Below, one piece after another: positions 7,802 through 20,572 of a DNA stretch of 20,572 nt (within the stretch, counting starts at the first letter, position 1; each line of letters begins with the position of its first letter). The notes under the pieces were generated by a model, which worked only from the letters and a program-made list of their open reading frames with translations, was not told the DNA's origin and did not search any database. The stretch is from a virus. Location of the stretch: positions 1 through 20,572 of IMG/VR virus record IMGVR_UViG_3300048837_000726; one strand, written 5' to 3'. Position numbers and translations under genes: made by a program.

Positions 7802-8124
7802 GCACCGAGAAGTTCGACGCATGGGGCATCGTCGAGTTGATGGGCCATCAGCGTGTTGCCGGCCGCATCAGCGAACGCGCGATCGGCGGCGGCAATCTGC
7901 TGCAGGTCGACATTCCGCAGGCTGACGATTCCTTCCGCACCGTCTTCTATGGCAGCAGTGCGATCTACGCGCTGCACGTGACCGATGAAGCCGCCGCGCG
8001 CGCGGTGGCCAAGGTCGGCGGCAGCAAGCCCACGTATGCGTTGGAACTGGAGCGTGTGCCGCGACTGTCCGCGCCGAACGAAACCACACATACCGACCAA
8101 GATGATGAGGAGTTCCCACTGTGA
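7798..8124 (+). CDS. Phage hypothetical protein with acidic tail, 108 aa
   Basis: ATG 7798 overlaps the previous stop (ATGA). The segments AWGIVELMGHQRVAGRISE, GGGNLLQVDIP and FYGSSAIYALHVTDEAAARAVA belong to a phage family I recognise by appearance, without a known function; its beta-rich core could be a small barrel. The end is acidic and hydrophobic (DQDDEEFPL), somewhat like an SSB tip though less exact than the protein at 3288. It lies in the second recombination module. Confidence 0.65.
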   Translation: MSTEKFDAWGIVELMGHQRVAGRISERAIGGGNLLQVDIPQADDSFRTVFYGSSAIYALHVTDEAAARAVAKVGGSKPTYALELERVPRLSAPNETTHTDQDDEEFPL

Positions 8125-8807
8125 GCGCCGCACCACTGCTCTGCATCCCACTGCGCGACCTGCAACTGGTGATGCCGTACAAAGCTGACGTGGAAACTAC
8201 GCGTCCGTCGATGGCGGGCATCCGCATCGAACCGGCCAACCCCGGCGCGCTGCTCATCGCCACCAACGGTCACATCATAGGCGTGATGCACAGTCGCGAT
8301 GCCGTCGTCGATCGGGCACGCACGCTGGCTATCGATCCCGTGTTTGAGTCCTGGCTCAATCACGAAGATATCTATGGCCCGAATGACAGCAACGTCCCCA
8401 TCCATGGCGACGTGGTAGTCGCCTCCGAAAATCACCGCATCGTCGTCAACAACGCTGGCGCTGAACTATTCGTTTCGCCCGGCAAACCGTTCATCGAGTC
8501 TGCCTATCCGCTCTGGCGCAATGTCGTGCCAGCCATCGACCAGCTGGAAGCCGGGATCGCGAGCGCTATCGCGGCTCGTTATCTGACGCTGCGTTCACCC
8601 ATCCTACAAAGCGCGAACATGCAAGGCATGCAGTGGTGGCACCGCCGGGACACGCCGGAAAAGCGCGTTCATGTCGCTCGCTACATCACAGAGCCCGACC
8701 TGGTTGTCGTCGTGATGCCGGTTCGTGTGGATGATCCCATACCGGATTGGCCGGAATGGATGGCGCGAACGAACGCCACTGAGTCACCCGCGAACCCCCC
8801 TTCTTGA
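8121..8807 (+). CDS. Protein with DNA sliding-clamp-like motifs, 228 aa
   Basis: It starts with GTG in a GTGA overlap. Two segments resemble bacterial beta clamp (DnaN): ALLIATNGHIIGVMHS, like the ATDGHRLAV strand, and ESAYPLWRNVVP followed by LEAGIASAIAARYL, like the YPDYRRVLP segment and following helix of E. coli DnaN. The protein is about 60% of DnaN length, so it would have fewer clamp domains per chain. The C-terminal part (EPDLVVVVMPVRVDD) also looks strand-rich. A clamp-like processivity or decoy role is inference. Otherwise the function is unknown. Confidence 0.5.
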   Translation: MSAAPLLCIPLRDLQLVMPYKADVETTRPSMAGIRIEPANPGALLIATNGHIIGVMHSRDAVVDRARTLAIDPVFESWLNHEDIYGPNDSNVPIHGDVVVASENHRIVVNNAGAELFVSPGKPFIESAYPLWRNVVPAIDQLEAGIASAIAARYLTLRSPILQSANMQGMQWWHRRDTPEKRVHVARYITEPDLVVVVMPVRVDDPIPDWPEWMARTNATESPANPPS

Positions 8808-8818
8808 GGTTCACTGCC

Positions 8819-9253
8819 ATGGATCACACCAATCGACACACCAAGATCGCAGCCGACGGCTCTGTGCTGCCGGTTCACGCCACCGTGTGGGACGCCGTGC
8901 TGGACAACCACACTGGATTCATGTGGCCCGTGAAGGCAATCCGAATCCCGAACGGCCACGAGAAGACCATTCGTGCTGCCTTGGCAGAAACCCAGGGTTG
9001 TGCCGGCTTCCACGACTGGGCCGCGCCCTCGGTGGAGCAGTTGTTCACGCTGCCCGATCGCACGCGCGTCAACCCGGCGATCGACACGAACTACTTCCCG
9101 AACTGCCCTCCTGACTGGTTCTGGTCGATTACGCCCGACAGCGTGTCGCCCTTGGATCTCGCGTGGAACGTCAACTTCTACTACGGCATTTCGAACCGGA
9201 ACAACCGCAACAACAACGGTTGGTTCCGCGCCGTGCGCGTCGGTCAGCTCTAG
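8819..9253 (+). CDS. DGR target protein, DUF1566 (Lcl C-terminal, C-type-lectin-like) domain
   Basis: ATG 8819 is preceded by GAGGT at 8806-8810; an upstream in-frame TTG at 8804 has no such support. The 144 residues make one DUF1566-like domain: DNHTGFMWP near the start, CAGFHDWAAPSVEQLFTL (61-78), NPAIDTNYFP, WFWSITP, and a C-terminal strand set ending GWFRAVRVG. The last 35 residues are encoded by a variable repeat (9140-9244) matched by a template repeat downstream. Residues changed against the template are Val109, Tyr121, Tyr122 and Ile124. DGR targets usually use such lectin-like folds to bind varied ligands. The ligand here is unknown, and there is no signal peptide. Confidence 0.82.
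   Translation: MDHTNRHTKIAADGSVLPVHATVWDAVLDNHTGFMWPVKAIRIPNGHEKTIRAALAETQGCAGFHDWAAPSVEQLFTLPDRTRVNPAIDTNYFPNCPPDWFWSITPDSVSPLDLAWNVNFYYGISNRNNRNNNGWFRAVRVGQL
9140..9244 (+). repeat. DGR variable repeat (VR)
   Basis: These 105 bases match 9753-9857 with four differences, at 9144, 9179, 9182 and 9189. In every case the template has A and this copy has T. The repeat ends nine bases before the target gene's stop codon. Its 3' end is GC-rich (ccgcgccgtgcgcgtcggt), as expected for the site where mutagenic homing starts. Beyond it the two copies diverge (cagctc here, gagtgt in the template). Confidence 0.9.
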
Positions 9254-9271: not shown

Positions 9272-9700
9272 ATGCACGAAGCACCTACCATCGTGAAAGC
9301 AAGCGAGCGCGTGCTTGTGGAGATCGAGGGAGCCGTCCGCGGATTTTCTCGGTATCACAAGTACGCTGTCGGCGCTGAATTACGCTCGGAAGCACGGCGC
9401 GTTGCGCGGCTCGCCAATCGTGCGTGGCGGGATCATCACCGGCGGGCGGAATGGCTCAGTCGGCTATCGTTTGCGATCGATGATTTGAAACTCTCTCTGC
9501 AGATCGCAAAGCGTGTCGAGGCCTTCACTGGCTTCAAGCAGTTCCAGGCCCTGGCGCGCATCGTTTACAACCTCGGCCAGCAGTGTGGAGGCTGGCAGAG
9601 ACGTCATTCCTGTAAGGGCCAGAACTCGCAGACCAATACGTCCGCGGGGCGTGCCCAGACACTGAGTGCCCGCGACGCCTCGCAAGAGGCTATTTCATGA
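9272..9700 (+). CDS. avd: DGR accessory variability protein (Avd-like)
   Basis: Avd is a small four-helix protein that binds the reverse transcriptase and the template RNA and is needed for mutagenic homing. This 142-residue protein has the usual Avd pattern: a YHKYAVGAELR start to helix 2, a basic RRVARLANRAW helix, then RLSFAIDDLKLSLQIAKR, FTGFKQFQALARIVYNLGQQ and the final GGWQ. After GGWQ there is an unusual tail of about 40 residues rich in Ser, Gln and Ala. The gene lies between the target gene and the template repeat, in the order avd has in the Bordetella phage BPP-1 DGR. Confidence 0.85.
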   Translation: MHEAPTIVKASERVLVEIEGAVRGFSRYHKYAVGAELRSEARRVARLANRAWRDHHRRAEWLSRLSFAIDDLKLSLQIAKRVEAFTGFKQFQALARIVYNLGQQCGGWQRRHSCKGQNSQTNTSAGRAQTLSARDASQEAIS

Positions 9701-9855
9701 CGAAGCGGTCCTACCCCTCTGGATGGTCCGCCGGGTCCAAAGTTCGCGGGTTAGCGAGTCGCCCTTGGATCTCGCGTGGAACGTCAACTTCAACAACGGC
9801 AATTCGAACCGGAACAACCGCAACAACAACGGTTGGTTCCGCGCCGTGCGCGTCG
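9701..9855 (+). ncRNA. DGR template RNA region between avd and RT
   Basis: This gap carries no convincing gene: readings across it are shifted-frame versions of the repeat. In known DGRs the template RNA covers the end of avd, the TR and the start of the RT gene, and is bound by RT and Avd. I infer the same here; the exact ends cannot be seen in the sequence. Confidence 0.5.
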
Positions 9856-9857
9856 GT
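9753..9857 (+). repeat. DGR template repeat (TR)
   Basis: This 105-base copy of the variable repeat lies between avd and the reverse transcriptase gene. It contains 25 adenines, mostly in AAC or AAT (Asn) codons in the target frame, spelling a N-rich stretch (NFNNGNSNRNNRNNN). AA-rich codons at positions meant to vary are typical for DGR templates, because the enzyme misreads template adenines. It would be transcribed as part of the template RNA and is not itself a gene. Confidence 0.9.
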
Positions 9858-10236
9858 GAGTGTCACCAAGGATGTCGTTACTCTGCAGGCTCTCTACGCT
9901 GCCTGGCGCGAGGCCCGCCGCAAGAAGAAGCCCAGCAACGACCAGGTGGGCTTCGAAACCTTCTGGATCGATAACCTGCAGCAGCTGCTGGAACGCGTGA
10001 TCGCGGGCACATGGCAGCCGGATCCACCGACGTGTTTCGTGGCCAAGCAGCCGAAAGCCAGAGAGATTCACGCGCCGACGTTCTCTGATCGCGTTATCCA
10101 TCACTGGCTGGTGCCGCAGCTCGAATGGATCTACGAGCCGACGTTTATTTTCGACTCCTTCTCGAATCGCCGCGGCAAAGGCACGCATGCTGCGATCGAC
10201 CGGTTGCAGGCTTTCGTGCGCCAGGTGCACAGTGGC
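9856..10236 (+). pseudogene. DGR reverse transcriptase, truncated before the catalytic motifs
   Basis: From GTG 9856, at the last bases of the TR, the frame encodes the N-terminal part of a DGR-type reverse transcriptase: LQALYAAWREARRKKKPSND, NLQQLLERVIAGTW, PKAREIHAPTFSDRVIHHWL, EPTFIFDSFSNRRGKGTHAA and IDRLQAFVRQV. This covers the finger region up to motif 2. The expected continuation with the first catalytic Asp and the YxDD box is absent: at about 10230-10240 the sequence changes to unrelated DNA, although the frame stays open to 10632. With no catalytic Asp the product cannot be an active polymerase. A deletion is the simplest explanation. Confidence 0.85.
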
Positions 10237-10255
10237 CAAAGTAAAGGAGAAAACC

Positions 10256-10632
10256 ATGCTGACCGACTGCCCGAAGTGCTGGATGTCCCTCTGCGAATGC
10301 GGATGGGAGTACAGGAATTGGCCGCTCATAGAGCGGAAGACGCTCGCGAGGCGCAAGGCACCGCCGTCATCAAGGCGCAGAGGGAGAAGATTGCGGAGTT
10401 GGAGCAGCAGATCGCCGGCGCGAACGCGACCATTGCGCATTTCATGGGGCCAGATGGCGAGCGGCACGCCGAGCGGTTCACGCGGCAGGTGGAGCGCATT
10501 GCCGAGTTGGAGCAAGCACTCGACCCGCGCCGGTGGACGCAGGAACAACATGCGGCTTGGCATCGAAACATCCCGGATGTGCAGGCAGCATTCGCGGCAC
10601 TCAGATCACTAATGGTGAGCGTGCCGAAATGA
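10256..10632 (+). pseudogene. Cys-rich / coiled-coil phage gene, apparently frameshifted
   Basis: ATG 10256 has a strong binding site (AAAGGAGAAAACC) and opens MLTDCPKCWMSLCECGWEYRNW, a Cys-rich segment that looks like a real zinc-site start. After about 35 residues this frame turns into Arg/Ser-rich non-protein-like sequence. The -1 frame, shared with the truncated reverse transcriptase, gives a convincing coiled coil (VIKAQREKIAELEQQIAG, then ERFTRQVERIAELEQAL) ending at 10632. One net -1 shift near 10350-10370 would join both into one protein of about 125 residues. I see no slippery heptamer. Decay or a sequencing error are both possible. Confidence 0.55.
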
Positions 10633-11017: not shown

Positions 11018-11278
11018 ATGGTTGTCCTTCCCGTCAATTGGGTCACCGGTCCACGGTTCTACGAACTTACCGGCTACACTGAGGATGCGTGCGATAAGAA
11101 GCGCTCGCAGGGCGTCTGGCTGGAGGGTGGTGTCTGGAAGAAGGCACCGGACGGACGCATCCTGTACAGCATCGAGGGGTATCACGCATGGGTCGAGGGA
11201 AAGGCGTTCGCGCCACAAGCAGATCGAGCATCGGCATCACGTTCCAGTATCGCGGCGCGCGCTGCCGGGAGAAGCTAA
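11018..11278 (+). CDS. xis: Putative excisionase (Xis-like)
   Basis: The 86-residue protein has the pattern of small phage excisionases of the winged-helix type: NWVTGPRFYELTGYTEDACD is a helix-turn-helix-like start, KKRSQGVWLEGGVWKKAPDG a wing, and ILYSIEGYHAWVEG the last helix. Xis proteins bend attachment-site DNA and direct the integrase toward excision. It overlaps the integrase gene by 91 bases, a common xis-int arrangement. The last 25 residues (APQADRASASRS and on) lie in the overlap and are probably unstructured. Confidence 0.72.
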   Translation: MVVLPVNWVTGPRFYELTGYTEDACDKKRSQGVWLEGGVWKKAPDGRILYSIEGYHAWVEGKAFAPQADRASASRSSIAARAAGRS

Positions 11279-12363
11279 AGCTTCGTCCGACCGATGCGAA
11301 TCGGAAATGGGCGGAACGACTGAAAGCCACGATCGAGCACGAGATCGCGACCGGTACATTCGACTACGCGAAGCACTTCCCGAACTCTCCGCGCGCGCGC
11401 ACGTTCGCACGTACCCCTGGCGCAGCAATCACTGTGGGAGAGCAGCTAGGGGTATGGCTTGACGGCAAGAGTGGTGAGGTTGAACCAGAAACCTGGGATG
11501 AGTACGAGAAGGACGTCCGTAAGCACCTGAAGCCGCAGTTCGGTGAGACGCGCCTATCGGACCTCACGCGGCAGGACGTCAAGACCTGGGCGGCCGGCAC
11601 GAAACTCAGCCGCAAGCGACTGAACAACATCCTCATCCCGCTGCGATCAATGCTGAACGAGGCCGTCGATCAGGACCCGCCGCTCATCCCTCGCAATCCA
11701 TTGCATGGCTTCGAGTTGAAGCGCCTGCGAACTCTGCAAACCAAGGACACCGTAGATCCATTCTCTCAAGAGGAAATCGCCGCCATCCGCGAACACAGCG
11801 ATCCGCAGTTCGCTGACTTCGTGGAGTTCTGGTGCTGGACCGGACCGCGCCTTGGCGAAATCATTGCGCTGCTGTGGGCGGATATCGACTTCCTCCGCGG
11901 CTCCATGCGCGTCGCGCGAGCCGTCCGCGAAGGACGCCTCAAGGCACCGAAAACCGAAGCGGGTGAACGGGACGTGAAATTGCTCGCCCCTGCCCTCGCA
12001 GCGCTGGAGCGGCAAAAGGCGCGAACCTATCTGGCTGGCCAGCACATCTGGCACAACCCCAGAACAGGAGAACCGTGGACGGGGGACGGTCCGATCCGGA
12101 AGACCGCGTGGGTGTACTCACTGAAGAAAGCCGGCGTGCGATATCGTGGACCGAAACAGCTTCGGCACACGTTCGCGAGCTGGATGCTTTCTGCCGGCGA
12201 GAATCCGCTGTGGGTCGCAAAGCAGATGGGCCATGAGGACTGGTCGATGATCGTGAAGGTCTACGGACGATGGATTCCGGAGGTGGACCCGCTCGCCGGG
12301 AGCCGTGCCGTCACGCTGATTTATGGCACGACTGCGGCACGATCAGAAGAAAAGGCCAAGTAG
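11188..12363 (+). CDS. int: Tyrosine-family site-specific integrase
   Basis: A 391-residue lambda-type integrase. Residues 10-65 form an arm-site-binding domain of the DUF3596 type (FQYRGARCREKLKL, then FDYAKHFPNS). Residues about 80-165 form the core-binding domain (VGEQLGVWLDG, WDEYEKDVRKHLKP). The catalytic domain follows with Arg221 (TGPRLGEI), Lys255 (APKTEAGERDV), Arg326 (KQLRHTFAS), His349 (KQMGHED) and nucleophile Tyr359 (KVYGRW). The usual first His of the HxxR box is Lys323, a change also seen in related enzymes. The gene ends 15 bases before the putative attachment core, whose neighbouring repeats could be its arm sites. Confidence 0.95.
   Translation: MGRGKGVRATSRSSIGITFQYRGARCREKLKLRPTDANRKWAERLKATIEHEIATGTFDYAKHFPNSPRARTFARTPGAAITVGEQLGVWLDGKSGEVEPETWDEYEKDVRKHLKPQFGETRLSDLTRQDVKTWAAGTKLSRKRLNNILIPLRSMLNEAVDQDPPLIPRNPLHGFELKRLRTLQTKDTVDPFSQEEIAAIREHSDPQFADFVEFWCWTGPRLGEIIALLWADIDFLRGSMRVARAVREGRLKAPKTEAGERDVKLLAPALAALERQKARTYLAGQHIWHNPRTGEPWTGDGPIRKTAWVYSLKKAGVRYRGPKQLRHTFASWMLSAGENPLWVAKQMGHEDWSMIVKVYGRWIPEVDPLAGSRAVTLIYGTTAARSEEKAK
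12322..12331 (+). promoter_or_regulatory. Candidate integrase arm-type site, left side
   Basis: TATGGCACGA occurs here, inside the end of int, and again at 12474-12483 on the other side of the attachment core. A related GGCACGAT lies at 12336-12343. Direct repeats on both sides of the core are how lambda-type integrase arm sites are arranged. Function is inferred from position only. Confidence 0.35.
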
Positions 12364-12378
12364 ATCAATGCAGGGCGA

Positions 12379-12404
12379 GGGTTCGATTCCCGCCGCCTCC
12401 ACCA
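12379..12404 (+). other. Putative attP core: 3' end of a tmRNA/tRNA gene
   Basis: This reads as a T-loop (ggttcgattcc), the 3' acceptor strand cgcctcc, discriminator A and CCA. There is no upstream acceptor strand or anticodon arm, so it is only a 3'-end fragment. E. coli tmRNA ends in a T-stem cccgc plus cagctcc and ACCA; this fragment has cccgc plus cgcctcc and ACCA, so ssrA is a likely target, though a tRNA cannot be excluded. Phage genes lie on both sides, which fits attP in a non-integrated genome. Confidence 0.75.
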
Positions 12405-19229: not shown

Positions 19230-19511
19230 ATGAGCTACGCAAGTGACATCCCGCTTTCCCTCGCCATCGCCGCACACAGCGGCACCAGTTTCGTGCCGGA
19301 TCGCCGTGGCGCTGCCGTTGTCGCCGGTTACGGCGCCGAACTTCAGGAGGCCATCGATCGCGCCGGCTACAGTCAGGCCGGTGCAGCTCGTGAGATGGGC
19401 ATCGATCGCCGAACACTAATGCGCTACCTGTCCGGAGAGTACCCAGTCCCGCGGCTTGTTGAACTTGCCGTGAAGGCATTACCCGCCCCTCACCAGGCAA
19501 ACCGTCGCTAG
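19230..19511 (+). CDS. Small HTH-domain protein, 93 aa
   Basis: ATG 19230 follows a TGAGGAAA binding site. The C-terminal half is a helix-turn-helix of the Cro/XRE style: AELQEAIDRAGYSQAGAARE, then MGIDRRTLMRYLSGEYPVPR and a closing helix LVELAVKAL. The N-terminal 35 residues (IPLSLAIAAHSGTSFVPDRR) are not part of this fold; similar segments occur in some large phage virion proteins. It is alone on the + strand, and its end overlaps the end of the zeta-like gene by 33 bases. It could regulate the late block or be a moron; its targets are unknown. Confidence 0.65.
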   Translation: MSYASDIPLSLAIAAHSGTSFVPDRRGAAVVAGYGAELQEAIDRAGYSQAGAAREMGIDRRTLMRYLSGEYPVPRLVELAVKALPAPHQANRR

Positions 19512-20572
19512 GTTCGCGACCTTCGCCCATCGATCCGCATTTGCAGCGGCTTCGTTGATCTCGCGAATAGAGGCATCCTCAGCCTCTACGCCGAGCCGAT
19601 CCGCTAGCGCCTCGAGATCGGACTGCGCAAGGCTCATCTCTTCCTGAGCGGCCTTCAGGTTGTCCGCAGTCGGTGTTCCGGTGTCGATCTCGCGCGCAAG
19701 TGTTTTCTGCGCGGCATCGAGCGCACCACGAACGTCTGCGGCATCGGCTTGGGGGTTGATCGGGGTGTCAAGCGCCCCATTGACGACCGCCTGCTTGAGT
19801 GCGGTCTCTCGCTGAATCGGGGTGGCAGCGATTAGCTGCTCTTCTGGTCCGAGTCCTCTTCCATCACCGCCTTGTTCAGGGCCTCGACCCACGCTCTGCC
19901 GAGCCGATCGGCCTCCGCGTTGCGGAGCGCCGTTTCCTTTTGTGCCTCGGTAGATGGCGTCTGTAATGGCGCCTGACTTGTAGGCTGCTTCAAGGGCTGC
20001 ATCTAACTCTCCTACCACCGCATTGTAATCTAACCGGGGTAGCGCTTCCACACTGGACAAACGGGCATTCCCCTTGCCGTGACTGTTATCAATGACTTGG
20101 ATGCGAACCCGAGAATCATCTGCGTACTTTTGACTTAATTCACGTACCGTATCCAATGATCCGACGTGCGTCTTGGCGTGTTCTTCCAGCGGAACCGTGC
20201 GCCCCATTCGCTTCGCGCGAGGTAACGCGCCGTTCACCAGCGCATCCACTGGGTGGCGATACGTGTAAACGATGTCGACATTGCGACCTGATGCCAGTGC
20301 TTGCTCAATCTTTTTCACCGAGCTTTGCAGCCCGTTCAGGTTGGTGTCGTAGATAATCCGTGCATCACGGATATCAGCATTGGACTTCGCGAGCATGTCG
20401 AGGCCCGTGGTCTTTCCGGCACCTGTTCCGCCGCCAGAGAAGATCACGCGCTCGTTCGGTTGTGCTGGTTCAGCAAGGCGCCGCTCGTAAATCTGCTCCA
20501 CCAGGTACGAAGCGGGCTCATGAACTGCAGCAGATCGAGTTCTGTCAGCGCGGTAGTCCGCGGACAGTTCGC
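19479..20572 (-). CDS. Zeta-toxin-like P-loop protein, C-terminal part of a larger gene
   Basis: The frame is open to the right edge, so the gene starts outside the window; GTG 20499-20501 is not needed as a start. A Walker A motif is clear (SGGGTGAGKTTGLDML), followed by IIYDTNLNGLQSSVKKI and VDIVYTYRHPVDALVNGAL, as in zeta-toxin/phosphotransferase-like kinases. Next come a Gly/Arg-rich linker (APQRGGRSARQS) and a helical C-terminal region (GALDAAQKTLAREI, EMSLAQSDLEALADRLGV). Such domains occur inside large polyvalent phage proteins delivered into the host. No antitoxin gene is seen beside it. The substrate is unknown. Confidence 0.65.
   Translation of the reverse strand, partial: ELSADYRADRTRSAAVHEPASYLVEQIYERRLAEPAQPNERVIFSGGGTGAGKTTGLDMLAKSNADIRDARIIYDTNLNGLQSSVKKIEQALASGRNVDIVYTYRHPVDALVNGALPRAKRMGRTVPLEEHAKTHVGSLDTVRELSQKYADDSRVRIQVIDNSHGKGNARLSSVEALPRLDYNAVVGELDAALEAAYKSGAITDAIYRGTKGNGAPQRGGRSARQSVGRGPEQGGDGRGLGPEEQLIAATPIQRETALKQAVVNGALDTPINPQADAADVRGALDAAQKTLAREIDTGTPTADNLKAAQEEMSLAQSDLEALADRLGVEAEDASIREINEAAANADRWAKVANLATVCLVRGG

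Follow-up and report, generated by a model that had tools for sequence, protein, structure and literature searches.

The window, i.e., the whole 20.6-kb stretch of virus DNA that was analyzed, contains a phage DGR cassette in which the target gene with its variable repeat (VR), Avd, the template repeat (TR) and the reverse transcriptase (RT) follow each other in this order. The features of the cassette and of the sequence directly after it are:

8804–9253, plus strand: target gene encoding an Lcl_C domain protein of 149 aa (Pfam Lcl_C, E 6.4e-20)
9140–9244, plus strand: VR, from comparison with TR
9272–9700, plus strand: avd accessory gene (phrog_3206 'Avd protein of DGR', E 2.6e-15)
9753–9857, plus strand: TR with 25 adenines, from TR/VR comparison
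9856–10239, plus strand: 5' (N-terminal) part only of a DGR RT gene with GTG start (phrog_1423, profile of relatives, 8ub7_A)
10239–10255, plus strand: junction, with the end of RT homology and the AAAGGAG ribosome-binding site (10243–10249) of the next gene
10256–10632, plus strand: small gene encoding CxxC/CxC motifs and a coiled coil (codon-phase GC, weak matches)

In a working DGR, RT and Avd copy TR RNA with adenine errors, and the resulting cDNA then replaces VR. The VR of the window is found at the 3' end of the target gene and reaches to just short of the stop codon, while the GTG start of the RT at 9856 sits at the end of TR. The 3' homing boundary differs between the repeats, with GGTCAG in VR and GGTGAG in TR, and the same C/G difference is present in the related loci L017, L018 and L019. 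The avd product also has matches upstream of the RT in the loci L015–L029, and reaches E 5.6e-6 with Pfam bAvd, which is under the cut-off of that family. TR, VR and Avd are intact in the record. That the target gene and TR look intact had been noted from the sequence alone, and this is supported as far as sequence can tell.

Loci related to the cassette

The relatives used for comparison were 14 loci from one scan (genome_contigs) and the best 80 of 227 from an alignment-based scan (viral_contigs), 94 in total. This sample was not selected for an intact catalytic domain, as the search patterns lie in the N-terminal part. A catalytic-domain match was found downstream in 91 of the 94 loci (14 plus the best 80 of 227). 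L044 and L059 stop at the contig end, 113 and 16 bases past the N-terminal part, respectively. L001, from a Planctomycetota MAG, has no catalytic-domain match despite almost 8 kb of room; its RT frame (locus about 7959–8495) passes the first Asp motif and then soon stops, and no TR was detected in L001. Judged by eye, the broken RT of L001 lies downstream of an Lcl_C-like target end.

All 15 of the closest viral relatives (L015–L029, among the best 80 of 227) have a full RT with [YF]VDD, at 52–69% identity. These intact IMG/VR phage cassettes share the order target, avd, TR and RT with the window, TR is placed directly ahead of the RT as in the window, and in most of them the targets resemble that of the window, whose target gene is 48% identical to those of L016 and L021. 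The two differ in that each relative has a full RT along with two or three detected VRs, whereas the window has an RT stub and one VR. The target of the window is similar to the avd-distal one in several relatives, and on this basis the loss of a second target by VR-VR recombination was considered. This idea was dropped, as the avd-adjacent target of L020 matches equally full-length and the other VR of L020 belongs to a target downstream of the RT.

The end of the RT and the downstream gene

The phage reverse transcriptase family phrog_1423 matches residues 5–125 only of the protein (E 1.3e-34), and an N-terminal profile built from the 15 relatives matches 9877–10242 (E 1e-60). In a phmmer search, the stub matches the solved 328-residue RT chain 8ub7_A (PDB), presumably the DGR RT of Bordetella phage BPP-1, at chain residues 11–129 and thus short of Asp-Phe-Phe, and the match of the full relative L015 also takes in Asp-Phe-Phe and the YxDD region of this chain. 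The catalytic Asp motif and [YF]xDD are absent from the stub, as the protein ends before the first motif. Neither the catalytic-domain profile of the 15 relatives nor Pfam RVT_1 has a match anywhere in the 20.6-kb window, and relocation of the catalytic half to another part of the window was rejected for this reason. The RT is truncated in the record, and the sequence-only reading was correct in placing this truncation ahead of the active site.

The same reading had found the RT frame convincing to about 10230 and proposed an alignment with full-length relatives to place the end of the deletion. In this alignment, the window and the relatives agree up to ...VRQVHSGQ and then part. The last RT-like base is 10238/10239, just ahead of the first catalytic Asp motif, and the 21-mer at 10218–10238 is found exactly in L097, a 47.7-kb virus contig with an intact RT.

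After the RT homology the window reads AGTAAAGGAGAAAACCATG, followed by the ribosome-binding site and ATG 10256 in frame 2, from where the downstream gene opens with MLTDCPKCWMSLCECGWEYRNW. An open frame does span 9697–10632, as stated when the RT was described as running into another gene, but the gene itself is not a continuation of the RT frame, since it has its own ribosome-binding site and its own start in frame 2. Judged from GC by codon phase, the coding frame seems to be the RT frame up to about 10240, frame 2 between about 10240 and 10330, and the RT frame (frame 1) again after that. The downstream gene thus appears to shift frame near 10310–10330, with its start in frame 2 and the coil in frame 1, and this apparent frameshift is the reason why the coil falls in the RT frame. 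The frameshift may be a real mutation, a base error or frameshifting, which calls for caution on the local sequence quality. When judged by eye for a programmed frameshift, the gene has no obvious slippery site.

The first residues of the downstream gene weakly resemble small proteins of the jumbo phages PhiXhv-16 and PhiPA3 (E 0.07 each). A search of phages with the coil piece gave no match at E 0.1, and neither the start of the downstream gene nor the TR 21-mer gave a match when used as query. With the cassette as nucleotide query, phages likewise gave no match, and scans with single proteins (the RT fusion, the 839-aa virion protein and the excisionase) gave no close phage relative. As the downstream side of the ancestral junction was not recovered, deletion and module recombination are inseparable as origins of the join. 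Tetranucleotide similarity across the join is 0.89, compared to a range of 0.82–0.94 along the contig.

TR/VR differences and the age of the truncation

All four differences between TR and VR are at TR adenines, and none of the 80 non-adenine positions differ. In the VR of the window, 4 of 25 adenines are changed, all of them from A to T. In the 32 VRs of the 15 relatives (L015–L029), 436 of 761 adenines are changed (range 36–82%), together with four other differences across 2522 non-adenine positions. The window VR thereby has the lowest adenine substitution of the 33 VRs examined. At the pooled rate, the binomial probability of four or fewer changes in 25 is 2.7e-5, a value to be read with caution, as the spread among VRs exceeds the binomial one and selection acts on them; near its 3' end, one VR of L017 has just 1 of 10 adenines changed. 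The changed adenines in the relatives favor G (255 of 436), and the four in the window are all T.

Such a TR-like VR could stem from a passage of TR sequence to VR without mutation, or from a final round of homing that made few errors. The TR has retained its 25 adenines and has therefore not been overwritten by VR. We consider it doubtful, though conceivable, that VR was overwritten by unmutated TR through ordinary DNA recombination after the RT was lost, which would have reset the target toward the template state. Such overwriting would account for a VR that is closer to its TR than any other of the 33, next to a TR whose adenine-rich codons are preserved. In a more daring version of this idea, the phage depends on a helper RT in trans. 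A 2026 study describes TR-VR recombination as rare in E. coli (PMC12875486).

The age of the truncation was approached by fitting RT-stub identity to Avd identity over the 105 pairs among the 15 relatives. The 15 pairs that include the window have a mean residual of -0.016, compared to -0.031 to 0.040 for the means of the relatives themselves. Of 32 columns that are invariant in the relatives, the stub deviates at two, both with conservative changes (L to V and V to I), and in a leave-one-out comparison on the same columns the relatives deviate at 0 to 4. The loss of the RT looks recent, as the stub shows no excess divergence over working DGRs and the TR/VR differences are at adenines only. 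An RT gene that had been dead for long would have drifted. The same TR/VR argument is applied to the inactivated RTs in the DiGReF paper (PMC3521204).

Possible causes, known cases and genomic context

Taken as a whole, the locus is likely a standard phage DGR whose RT was recently deprived of its catalytic two thirds by deletion or module recombination. A deletion, or an illegitimate recombination with the integration module, would have removed this part and left the RT, cut just ahead of the first catalytic motif, joined to the 5' leader of an unrelated small gene. An N-terminal stub without any catalytic motif would not be expected to polymerize, so that copying of TR into VR would be lost and the target protein would keep its last VR, fixed. 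From the sequence, we infer a genuine DNA join, a loss of activity and the absence of a rescuing second RT, i.e., the cassette is probably switched off.

It is unlikely, although less so than the other alternatives, that the phage has a full RT and that about 0.9 kb was skipped or mis-joined in the contig at 10239–10256. The virus record may be a fragment, the RT is intact in all 15 closest relatives (among the best 80 of 227), the stub is undecayed, and the apparent frameshift about 70 bases downstream might likewise point to poor local sequence. Against an assembly artefact, the join leads straight to a ribosome-binding site and start codon with natural spacing, and there is no composition break at the join.

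It is improbable that the cassette remains active through a full-length DGR RT provided in trans by a host element or by the unseen half of the phage. This would be in line with the intact TR, VR, Avd and TR/VR 3' boundary difference, as well as with differences at adenines only, and the record covers only part of the phage genome. However, the 20.6-kb record holds no second RT, and 4 of 25 changed adenines, against 36–82% in the 32 relative VRs, is the opposite of ongoing mutagenesis. The suggestion that the system is either frozen or rescued in trans thus holds as far as the sequence reaches, with nothing in the 20.6-kb record that speaks positively for rescue. That the N-terminal stub, by itself or as a fusion with the coil, has been retained for a function, e.g., TR RNA or Avd binding, is very improbable: the open frame from 9697 to 10632 and the good conservation of the stub would suit it, but recency accounts for the conservation, the stretch that links stub to coil is not read in the frame of the downstream gene itself, and the form has no second copy among the 94 loci (including the best 80 of 227), with L001 broken elsewhere.

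Loss of the catalytic part of the RT, which remains our preferred explanation, has precedents. DGRs with an inactivated RT and intact TR/VR were published in 2012, and the DiGReF cases include a nonsense mutation in Ruminococcus gnavus, an insertion in Acaryochloris marina and a frameshift in Bacteroides sp. 9_1_42FAA (PMC3521204). As described there, these resemble the window in having a truncated RT, intact TR/VR, adenine-only differences and an inactivation inferred to be recent. Unlike in these cases, the 3' part of the RT in the window is gone, with the start of another gene in its place. Isolates of Treponema denticola are reported to keep target genes without RT or TR (PMC4891356), and are similar to the window as DGR remnants with VR-bearing targets and no full RT. 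As reported, both RT and TR are gone in T. denticola, whereas the window has kept TR, Avd and the RT stub (PMC4891356). A DGR with a broken RT and intact TR/VR is therefore already known, and the window is another such case; to call it an unusual snapshot of DGR decay was too strong, given the clean TR/VR described with inactivated RTs in 2012 (PMC3521204). The exact form, an RT joined to the leader of another gene, was not found in a non-exhaustive literature search. The locus would represent a clean natural case of a phage that has lost its diversification engine and retained target, template and accessory gene, and it lets one ask how VR behaves after retrohoming stops.

Downstream of the cassette, an integrase (11188–12363) is followed by a 3' tmRNA-like end (12300–12404), which has an Rfam tmRNA match of 25.7 bits (E 6e-9), under the gathering score. 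This junction is probably attP at ssrA. As phage genes are found on both sides of it, the phage DNA appears to be excised or circularized. Among the minus-strand genes past the tmRNA end, one encodes a 678-aa protein that is spike-like only in its position and appearance, and another an 840-aa protein related (37%) to a virion protein of Pseudomonas phage Tr60_Ab31. Positions 1–163, at the contig start, contain 27-base tandem repeats encoding NSAQLAASG-like units, and an open-ended protein at 19479–20570 has a P-loop-like GGGTGAGKTTGLD segment and is zeta-toxin-like by eye only.
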